The notes beneath the pieces are model-generated. The model ran no database searches and was not told the DNA's origin. It saw only the letters and a list, made by a program, of their open reading frames with translations. Positions 55,678-58,897 of a stretch of 64,000 bases of DNA are shown in pieces. Position 1 is the stretch's first letter. Every line of letters starts with the position of its first letter. The position numbers were made by a program, and so were the translations under genes. The stretch comes from Microbacterium sp. 10M-3C3 (GTDB lineage Bacteria; Actinomycetota; Actinomycetes; Actinomycetales; Microbacteriaceae). The DNA lies in assembly GCF_003931875.1 (NCBI RefSeq), contig NZ_CP034245.1:2108001-2172000 (forward strand), written 5' to 3'.

Positions 55678-56703
55678 ATGCAGCAGGCTCGACGTGCCCG
55701 GGTGTCGGTGATCATCCCGGTCAAGGACGACGCGACCGCGCTCGCGGAGTGCCTCCGATCGCTGCGCGGCCAGACGCGCGCGCCCGACGAGGTGCTCGTG
55801 GTCGACAACGCGTCATCCGACGACTCCGCGCGCGTCGCCGCCGCCTTCGGATGCCGCGTGGTCCGCTGCGAGCGGCCGGGCATCCCGGCGGCGAGCGCCG
55901 CCGGCTACGACGCGGCCGCCGGTCACCTGCTCCTGCGCCTGGACGCCGACTGCCGCGCACCCGCGGACTGGATCGAGCGCTGCGTGCGCGCCTTCGCGGC
56001 CGACCCGCGCCTCGGCGCCGCGAGCGGGGCCGCCCGCTTCCCGGGGCGCGGCGGCGCTCTCGCCGCGGCGCTGTATCTCGGCGCGTACGCGTCGGTGTGC
56101 GCGCCGGCGCTCGCGCACCGCCCGCTGTTCGGGTCGAACCTGGCCCTGCGCCGCACGGCGTGGCGGAGCGTCCGTCACCGTGTGCACCGCGACGACCCCG
56201 AGGTGCACGACGACCTCGACCTGGCCTTCCACCTCGGCGAGCGTCACCGCATCGGGCGGCTCCGTGGTGCGCCGATGACGATGTCGGCGCGCCCGTTCGC
56301 CGACGCCGCGGCGTTCGGCCGGCGCATCCGGCGCGGCGGACGGACCGTCGTGATCCACTGGCCGCGCGACTTCCCGCCCGTCCGGGCGACCCGGCTGCTG
56401 CTGCGGCGTCTCCGCGGCGAGCTGTCAACCCCGGGTCCGCACGGCCGCGTCCGGTCACCATGGAGACTCGCGACGGAAGGAGCCGACATGGCGAGCGAGC
56501 TGTCCAAGGGCGACCGGGTGAGCTGGGACACGTCCCAGGGACGCACGCGGGGCGAGGTCGTGGAGAAGAAGACGAAGGACTTCCAGTTCGAGGGGCAGAA
56601 GTTCACCGCATCGAGCGACGAGCCCGCCTACATCGTGAAGTCCGAGAAGACCGGCGCGAAGGCGGCGCACAAGGGCTCGGCCCTGCGCAAGCTCAGCTCC
56701 TGA
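55678..56703 (+). CDS. family 2 glycosyltransferase fused in frame to a DUF2945 (HVA/Tudor) domain
   Basis: 341 residues. Residues 8-250 form a GT-A glycosyltransferase: VSVIIPVKDDATALAECL, VVDNASSDD and the metal-binding DAD at 89-91, then a hydrophobic patch (LAAALYLGAYASVCAPALA). No stop codon separates it from the 71-residue DUF2945 frame, which begins at residue 271 with its own ATG and ribosome site. So both a fusion and a separate small protein can be made. The linker (LSTPGPHGRVRSPWRLATEGAD) has no fold. GAAGGGGG precedes the ATG. Confidence 0.8.
   Translation: MQQARRARVSVIIPVKDDATALAECLRSLRGQTRAPDEVLVVDNASSDDSARVAAAFGCRVVRCERPGIPAASAAGYDAAAGHLLLRLDADCRAPADWIERCVRAFAADPRLGAASGAARFPGRGGALAAALYLGAYASVCAPALAHRPLFGSNLALRRTAWRSVRHRVHRDDPEVHDDLDLAFHLGERHRIGRLRGAPMTMSARPFADAAAFGRRIRRGGRTVVIHWPRDFPPVRATRLLLRRLRGELSTPGPHGRVRSPWRLATEGADMASELSKGDRVSWDTSQGRTRGEVVEKKTKDFQFEGQKFTASSDEPAYIVKSEKTGAKAAHKGSALRKLSS
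56488..56703 (+). CDS. DUF2945 / HVA1 Tudor-like protein
   Basis: 71 residues, MASELSKGDRVSWDTSQGRTRGEVVEKKT onward, matching the small beta-barrel DUF2945 proteins that normally occur alone. AGGAG lies seven bases before the ATG. It shares its reading frame with the upstream glycosyltransferase. Function unknown. Confidence 0.85.
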   Translation: MASELSKGDRVSWDTSQGRTRGEVVEKKTKDFQFEGQKFTASSDEPAYIVKSEKTGAKAAHKGSALRKLSS

Positions 56704-56706
56704 GCC

Positions 56707-58143
56707 TCATGCGTCACGACGCGCGCGCATCTGCGCGAGCGCAAGCGCCATCCGCGGATTCCCCGCGAGCGCGTCCTCGTTCGCCGCGAGGAAGTCCCAG
56801 TAGGCCGTCGTGAACGCGGAGTCGCGGGCCGCCGCATCCGACTCCCACCAGTGCCCCATCTTCTGCAGGTAGGCACCGCCGGAGACATACGGCTTCGTGG
56901 CGACGAGCCCGCCATCGGCCCACTGGCTCATGCCCATGACGTTCGGCACCATCACCCATTCGTACGCGTCGACGAACAGGGCCGAGAACCAGCGGGTGAC
57001 CTCGCGCGGCGCGTAGCCGCGCAGGAGCAGCCAGTTGCCGAGCACCATGAGCCGCTCGATGTGGTGCGCATATCCCCAGCGGTGCACGCGTTCGAGGACG
57101 ACGCGCACCGGCTCCGGCAGGTCGCGGGGGATGCGGCGGCCGGTGTACCAATAGCTCTCGAGCCGGCGGTGCAGCCCGAGCGCGTTCGCGTCGGCGAGTT
57201 CTGGGTGCGCGCGGTACACGCCGCGCATGTACTCGCGCCATCCGATGACCTGCCGGACGAAGCCCTCGCGCGAGGCCAGCGACGCCGACGCATGCTGAGC
57301 CACGGCGTCGGCGACGTCGTGTGCCGTGAGCAGGCCGATGTTCAGCGACGACGAGAGCACGGAGTGGAACAGGAACGGCTCGTCGCGCGCCATCGCGTCC
57401 TCGTACGGCCCGAAGTCGGCGAGCCGTTCGGCGACGAACGCATCGAGCCACGTGCGCGCCTCGTCGGGTGTCACGGGCAGCCAGAACTCGCTCGCGTCGC
57501 CGGGATGCTCGGCGAAGCGCTCGCCGACCTCGGCGATCACGCCCGCCGTGATGCCGTCGTGCTCGGCCGCGGGCAGGGCGGGGACGACGACGCCGCCGCG
57601 CGGCAGCGGCTTGCGGTTGTCGGCGTCGAAGTTCCAGCGCCGTCCCGCCGGCCGCCCGCCGTCCATGAGGAGGCCGGTGCGGCGGCGCTGCCAGCGGTAG
57701 AAGTCCTCCATGCGCGGCGCGGGATGCTCGGCGAACCAGCCGTCGACCTCCTCCGCCGGCGTGAGGAACAGGCCGTCCGGGTAGACGCGCGTGCGCAGGC
57801 CCCACCGCGCGCACAGCGCCGACAGGCGCTCGTCCACGCCCAGGTCGGTCGCGCCCATCCACGCGAGGCCGTCGGGCCGGCGGTCGCGCACGAGGCGTTC
57901 GAGACCGGCCGCGAAGCCCACCCCGTCCGACAGCGGGACGACGCGCACCGTGCGCCCCTCCGCCTCCCACCGCGCCGCGCTGTGGCGCATGGCCGCAAGC
58001 AGCAGCGTGATCTTGTGCTGGTGGTACGGAAGCCGCCGGAACCGATCCTCGGCCTCGACGACGAACAGCTCGTCGATGTCGGGATCCTCGAGCGCCGGAT
58101 GCCGCTCGAACTGCTGGGTCGCGAGGATCAGGGCCGCCTTCAT
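56707..58143 (-). CDS. photolyase/cryptochrome-related protein (FeS-BCP family) without Fe-S cysteines
   Basis: 478 residues. Family landmarks: AALILATQQFERHP start, YHQHKITLLLAAMRH, IGWREYMRGVYRAHPEL, WGYAHHIERLMVLGNW, VDAYEWVMVPNVMGMSQWADGG and TKPYVSGGAYLQKM, i.e. the prokaryotic (6-4) photolyase PhrB type. After QKM the PhrB pattern YCxxC...ACPF is replaced by GHWWESDAAARDSAFTTAYW. The whole protein has one cysteine (C111), so none of the four cluster ligands exists. GACGCT lies six bases before the ATG. Confidence 0.9.
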   Translation of the reverse strand: MKAALILATQQFERHPALEDPDIDELFVVEAEDRFRRLPYHQHKITLLLAAMRHSAARWEAEGRTVRVVPLSDGVGFAAGLERLVRDRRPDGLAWMGATDLGVDERLSALCARWGLRTRVYPDGLFLTPAEEVDGWFAEHPAPRMEDFYRWQRRRTGLLMDGGRPAGRRWNFDADNRKPLPRGGVVVPALPAAEHDGITAGVIAEVGERFAEHPGDASEFWLPVTPDEARTWLDAFVAERLADFGPYEDAMARDEPFLFHSVLSSSLNIGLLTAHDVADAVAQHASASLASREGFVRQVIGWREYMRGVYRAHPELADANALGLHRRLESYWYTGRRIPRDLPEPVRVVLERVHRWGYAHHIERLMVLGNWLLLRGYAPREVTRWFSALFVDAYEWVMVPNVMGMSQWADGGLVATKPYVSGGAYLQKMGHWWESDAAARDSAFTTAYWDFLAANEDALAGNPRMALALAQMRARRDA

Positions 58144-58231
58144 CCGGCCAGCGTCGCAAACCGGCGGCGCCGGCCGGGAGGGCTTGCGCGAGGACGGCGC
58201 CGCCACCCGTGGAGTTTGATTGACTGGGGGC

Positions 58232-58897
58232 ATGGCTGGCACGGCGATGTTCCCGCTCGGCTCGGTGCTCTTCCCGCACACGCCGCTGGCCCTGCGCGTG
58301 TTCGAGGAGCGCTACCTCGTCCTGCTCGGCAGACTCCTCGACGCCGAGAACCCCGAGTTCGGCGTCGTGCTGATCGAACGCGGACGCGAGACCGGCGGCG
58401 GGGAGCAGCGGTTCGGCATCGGCACGCTCGCGCGGCTGACGCGCGTCCTGCCGCAGCAGGATCAGATCTCGCTCGTGGCGCAGGGCACCGACCGCGTCGA
58501 GGTCGTGTCGTGGCTCGATGACGACCCGTATCCGCGGGCCGATCTCCGCGTGCTCCCCGACCTCGAATGGCACGACGGTCTGACACCCCTGCTCGAGGAG
58601 GCGGAGCACATCGTCCGCCGCGTGCTCGGGCGGGCCGGCGACGTGGGCCTCGCCCGCTGGGACCCCGATGTGGAGCTCTCCGACGAGCCGCTCGCGCGGG
58701 CGTGGCAGGTCGCGGCGATCGCTCCGCTGAGCGAGATGGACCGGCTGCAGCTGCTGCGCTCGACGACGCTCGGCGGCCTGCTGCGCGCGACGATCGACCT
58801 CACCCTCGCCGCCGAGCCGTTCCTCGCCGACCCGGCGCCGGACGGCCTCTTCGTCGTCGAGGAGGATGACGACGAGGAAGACGACGACGCGGAGTGA
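58232..58897 (+). CDS. LON substrate-binding-domain protein
   Basis: 221 residues: MFPLGSVLFPHTPLALRVFEERYLVLLGRLL is the N-terminal Lon domain, followed by QRFGIGTLARLTRVLPQQDQISLVAQGTDRVEVV; there is no ATPase or protease part. Ends in an acidic tail (EEDDDEEDDDAE). Role unknown; perhaps a substrate adaptor. ATG 58232 is preferred to GTG 58220; TTGACT six bases upstream is a weak leaderless box. Confidence 0.9.
   Translation: MAGTAMFPLGSVLFPHTPLALRVFEERYLVLLGRLLDAENPEFGVVLIERGRETGGGEQRFGIGTLARLTRVLPQQDQISLVAQGTDRVEVVSWLDDDPYPRADLRVLPDLEWHDGLTPLLEEAEHIVRRVLGRAGDVGLARWDPDVELSDEPLARAWQVAAIAPLSEMDRLQLLRSTTLGGLLRATIDLTLAAEPFLADPAPDGLFVVEEDDDEEDDDAE

Follow-up and report, generated by a model that had tools for sequence, protein, structure and literature searches.

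Within a stretch of 64,000 nucleotides from Microbacterium sp. 10M-3C3 (contig NZ_CP034245.1, positions 2,108,001 to 2,172,000; hereafter the window), the gene at 56707..58143 on the minus strand very probably encodes an intact, selectively maintained (6-4) photolyase of a kind devoid of the cysteines that bind the 4Fe-4S cluster, as judged from its sequence and from a structural model. This reading is based on (i) a complete model fold, (ii) the retention of the repair residues of PhrB, (iii) the absence of cluster ligands, and (iv) a place in a cysteine-free clade. The open reading frame (ORF) starts with an ATG at 58143 and comprises 478 codons plus a stop. Its product matches the PF04244 profile at 7.8e-54, and in a sequence search against solved structures the best relative was PhrB (4dja), followed by Cc(6-4)PL, CryB, SePhrB and a Vibrio protein, which agrees with the (6-4)-photolyase-family membership proposed in an earlier note on this DNA; an NCBIfam search of the protein assigned no family. 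The AlphaFold2 model displays the complete two-domain fold of prokaryotic (6-4) photolyases, and both marks of that family, the PF04244 domain and a PhrB-like fold across the whole chain, are present. A homolog search gave 7134 matches; of the 120 listed, the nearest (P0003, 478 aa) shares 97% identity with the photolyase, and the ratio of nonsynonymous to synonymous polymorphism (pN/pS) of the gene, obtained from the homolog alignment, is well below 1. Only 1 PF04244 match was found by profile search in the 3.39 Mb single-contig genome, and the protein's nearest named homologs fit an assignment to Microbacterium.

The four ligand positions of PhrB were located in an alignment of the window protein with its 120 listed homologs (121 rows). 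PhrB C350 corresponds to P345 (57109..57111; this and all residue coordinates below are on the minus strand), which is P in 120 rows and A in 1, while C438, C441 and C454 correspond to W433, D436 and S442, all within the former cluster loop, residues 430-442 (GHWWESDAAARDS; 56818..56856). The block GHWWESDAAARDSAFTTAYW quoted in the earlier note represents residues 430-449. Thus, none of the four cysteines that define the iron-sulfur bacterial cryptochromes and photolyases (FeS-BCP) subtype is present, and the note was right that C111 is the sole cysteine left in the 478-aa protein. It had also argued for replacement instead of misreading, and no cysteine occurs in any of the 121 rows (0/121) at the four ligand columns or anywhere from residue 425 to 450, which shows the replacement to be real and fixed in the Microbacteriaceae branch. 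The tryptophans to which it drew attention, W432-W433 (56845..56850), stand where the YCxxC motif has Y-C and are nearly invariant in their own branch (W432 in 121/121 rows; W433 kept in 118, with F in the other 3). A second cysteine-free branch has no such pair and carries a shortened loop at the cluster site, so that the Trp-Trp pair is dispensable for the cluster-free state.

The residues associated with repair are, in contrast, all in place. PhrB H366 is required for (6-4) repair, Y430 for efficient repair, and Y424 is counted among the PhrB repair residues (PMC4619345). All three are conserved in 121/121 rows, as H361 (57061..57063), Y419 (56887..56889) and Y425 (56869..56871), in keeping with membership of the prokaryotic (6-4) photolyases; H361 is likewise H in all rows of a 176-row alignment. 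The electron-transfer residues differ more. W332-Y333 (57145..57150) occupy the position of PhrB Y341-W342, W342 being the distal electron donor in PhrB; W332 is found in 121/121 rows and Y333 varies slightly (Y 111, F 7, S 2, C 1). W385-F386 (56986..56991) correspond to the medial donor W390 and to Y391 of PhrB, and F386 forms with F390 an Fx3F proximal pair of the type discussed in PMC12082625. M398 (56950..56952; M in 121/121 rows) lies at the N5 position of the flavin adenine dinucleotide (FAD), where PhrB has Glu403, and a Met-at-N5 pattern is described in PMC9178010. The antenna-selecting "D loop", as defined in the same paper, reads R37-L38-P39-Y40 (58024..58035) and resembles the R/Q-R-P/R-Y pattern tied there to 8-hydroxydeazaflavin (8-HDF); PhrB's E37-R108 salt bridge has no counterpart (R34, G102), and the CofH half encoded in this genome, described below, is devoid of its cysteines.

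From these residues a working scheme can be proposed, in which the FAD would be photoreduced via W385 and either W332 or Y333 and would then hand an electron on to the (6-4) lesion; the proton would presumably come from H361, as it does from the corresponding residue in PhrB. The roof subdomain, whose solubility in PhrB depends on the cluster, may be held here by packed side chains, with W432-W433 in the Microbacteriaceae branch and a shortened loop in the other, and, packed in this manner, would bind no Fe-S cluster. With less assurance, the antenna could be a deazaflavin of the 7,8-didemethyl-8-hydroxy-5-deazariboflavin (FO; 8-HDF) kind.

Several points weigh against a (6-4) photolyase of this kind. 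The electron donor Trp342 of PhrB is a Tyr in the window protein, so the donor chain is altered; the confidence of the model drops to about 70 at residues 401-420, which adjoin the active site; and the model, which was folded without a cluster and without a cysteine-bearing control, gives weak support for stability. Furthermore, a 2022 mBio paper (PMC9426592) guesses that the target of the cluster-free Phr2 is the cyclobutane pyrimidine dimer (CPD), a guess in print for proteins that our tree places in the same cysteine-free clade. A cluster-free enzyme acting on CPDs and not on (6-4) photoproducts is the alternative that survives best, and we regard it as improbable: the (6-4)-specific residues H366, Y424 and Y430 of PhrB are invariant across the alignment, the genome encodes another photolyase-type protein at a separate location (PF03441, 1 match), and PromaPL of Prochlorococcus is termed a cluster-free prokaryotic 6-4 photolyase in PMC9178010, on the authority of Ma 2019. 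Still less probable is a cryptochrome-like blue-light sensor that no longer performs repair. Gene regulation is known for the family member CryB alongside its photolyase activity, but the repair residues of the present protein are unchanged over the 121 rows, and the flanking ORFs tested match glycosyltransferase/TUDOR and LON domains and nothing regulatory. Misreading or gene decay, to which the absence of cysteines indispensable in PhrB (PMC4619345) might point, was ruled out by the same state in the 120 listed homologs, the open frame and the low pN/pS.

In order to describe how the cysteine-free and cysteine-bearing forms are spread, PF04244 matches were compiled from several genome samples. 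Of 198 genomes sampled from the genus, 44 had a single match each; 32 of these proteins show at least 66% identity to the window protein and 12 show 39-44%, and all four cysteines are present in each of the latter (12/12; L020, L176-L186). Microbacterium species have one kind or the other, and both kinds together were seen in 0 of the 198 genomes. Matches were found in 172/398 genomes of the family sample, 75/396 of the order sample and 50/396 of the phylum sample. Genera with the second cysteine-free type, whose loop is shortened, include Serinicoccus, Ornithinimicrobium, Janibacter, Nocardioides, Aeromicrobium and Phycicoccus. Of 151 genomes from the family of Cyanobium CACIAM 14, 82 had a match, and 51 copies from this family consisted of 45 without any of the four cysteines and 6 with all of them. 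Within the Pseudomonadota, where 52 genomes matched among 249 searched, no cysteine-free copy was present among the 50 fetched, all of which have the four cysteines. A scan of named genomes returned all four cysteines in 80/80 copies (the best 80 of 586 confirmed stretches), a scan that began from the cysteine-bearing SePhrB and is thereby biased to the cysteine-bearing state.

Compilation of these data gave a census of 392 rows, picked by similarity and availability and not at random, of which 223 have the four cysteines, 168 have none and 1 has a broken frame. The second cysteine-free type is represented in the census by 40 of its 120 listed homologs; six of the 223 rows (L187-L192) repeat loci of the named genomes, and among the P and L rows some proteins are identical or nearly so. 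One locus from a genome of the same order (L305, G924) holds a copy of the cysteine-free type that appears in two overlapping match pieces and looks frame-broken. That the window protein is unique was ruled out by the homolog listing, the census and the tree. The earlier note had presented the cysteine-free state as exceptional, and had named its being common across a large described clade as what would speak against this view. With 168 of 392 family rows lacking all four cysteines, and with subgroup M (PMC9178010) and the picocyanobacterial Phr2 already in print, such a common state is what was found. The wider frame of the note, in which FeS-BCP proteins are defined by the cluster, does not hold either: PMC9178010 treats FeS-BCP as one subtype within the prokaryotic (6-4) photolyases and not as the whole family.

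Trees were built by quick searches with Shimodaira-Hasegawa-like approximate likelihood ratio test (SH-aLRT) support only, and were left unrooted. When the cluster columns were excluded, a single branch (SH-aLRT 100) separated 51 cysteine-free rows from 55 cysteine-bearing rows, corresponding to one change, and a 176-row tree is in agreement. More than one independent cysteine change was considered and is not needed for the rows on hand, since one suffices on both trees. Within the cysteine-free rows the first split is the Microbacteriaceae branch, sister to the actinobacterial and picocyanobacterial rows jointly (98 and 99). The family of Cyanobium CACIAM 14 contributes 17 cysteine-free rows, which fall in the same clade as the window protein (SH-aLRT 100), PromaPL not being among the rows. 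As the tree is unrooted, cluster loss here and cluster gain in the other half of the family are indistinguishable.

A profile search also identified, outside the window, a fused CofG-CofH FO-synthase-like protein of 804 aa on the plus strand (G000:C1:3131059-3133470; L312:112-2526). Its CofG half scores 473.8 bits, above the cut-off, and retains CRDRCHYC, while its CofH half scores 289.5 bits, below the cut-off of 374.1. The radical S-adenosylmethionine (SAM) motif CX3CX2C was absent from the CofH half in all 30 Microbacterium loci (0/30) and in all 120 homologs listed out of 1313 matches (0/120), own copy included in both, whereas the CofG cysteine motif is present in 115 of these 120. Apart from this, the CofH model found only weak matches in the genome: the CofG half and a single place at 7e-4. 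Purifying selection acts on both halves (pN/pS 0.26 and 0.35; linker 0.70). In the genus sample (G000-G098), CofGH is present in 22/22 genomes with a cysteine-free photolyase, in 0/5 with a cysteine-bearing one and in 32/72 with no PF04244 match (Fisher P = 1.7e-7, cysteine-free group versus all others), a correlation that ignores kinship and may reflect the shared ancestry of the genomes. According to PMC8498797, a radical-SAM cluster is needed in both halves for FO. We tentatively raise the possibility, in our view an unlikely one, that the cluster-free photolyase of Microbacterium and CofGH form a working pair, in which CofGH would produce FO or a chromophore resembling it, bypassing the usual radical-SAM step of CofH, and the product would serve as the photolyase antenna. 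If true, two members of one repair module would each have shed an Fe-S cluster. PMC8498797 presents the two-radical-SAM route to FO as universal; this lead, if it holds, would therefore reach beyond photolyases and may matter more than the photolyase finding itself.

As regards the neighbours of the photolyase gene, the plus-strand frame at 55678-56703 encodes a family-2 glycosyltransferase domain followed, towards the end, by Hva1_TUDOR, in a single open frame with no stop between them; it is either a fused gene or a pair of genes read together. The divergent neighbour at 58220-58897 (plus strand) carries a LON substrate-binding domain alone (PF02190).

PhrB mutants in the cluster ligands were insoluble or unexpressed, from which the authors concluded that the cluster is required for stability (PMC4619345), and its function is still termed unknown in PMC12082625. 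A natural cluster-free clade that keeps the repair residues, together with close cysteine-bearing relatives from the same genus, offers a direct comparison for the role of the cluster. The cluster-free principle is already in print, and what the new branch contributes is Microbacterium as a convenient system. What is new here is modest, namely a deep Microbacteriaceae branch and its near-invariant Trp-Trp pair at the former YC of YCxxC. We found no published description of the Microbacterium branch in a search that left most subscription journals outside, and the sole paper retrieved with both "6-4 photolyase" and "Microbacterium" concerns Curtobacterium.

Among published systems, a 2022 Nucleic Acids Research paper (PMC9178010) sorted 110 sequences into seven subgroups and reported the four cysteines in all but subgroup M, which comprises 20 of the 110 and includes PromaPL. 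A cluster is likewise lacking in PromaPL according to PMC9426592, where the four cysteines are stated to be absent from most picocyanobacterial Phr2, and a 2025 Journal of the American Chemical Society paper (PMC12082625) mentions several orthologs without them. Compared with the FeS-BCP members PhrB of Agrobacterium fabrum, Caulobacter Cc(6-4)PL (9hnk), CryB and SePhrB, the window protein lacks all four 4Fe-4S ligands, has R-L-P-Y and not Y-V-G-H in the D loop, Fx3F for Yx3Y, Met for Glu403 and Tyr for Trp342; SePhrB of Synechococcus elongatus (8ijy), in contrast, retains its cluster. With subgroup M, the window protein shares the absence of the four cysteines, a Trp-Trp-Tyr-Tyr donor chain that is no longer intact (Y333, W385, F386, F390) and the Met at N5 (M398), which most of that subgroup have, and it groups with picocyanobacterial proteins in one cysteine-free clade. 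It differs from its actinobacterial and picocyanobacterial cysteine-free relatives, which have the shortened loop GSNYxxKMSDxxxGxWxxxWD, in forming a separate deep branch with a full-length MGxWW loop. The window protein is thus mainly one more representative of an already described cluster-free subgroup, within which it lies in a new deep branch.
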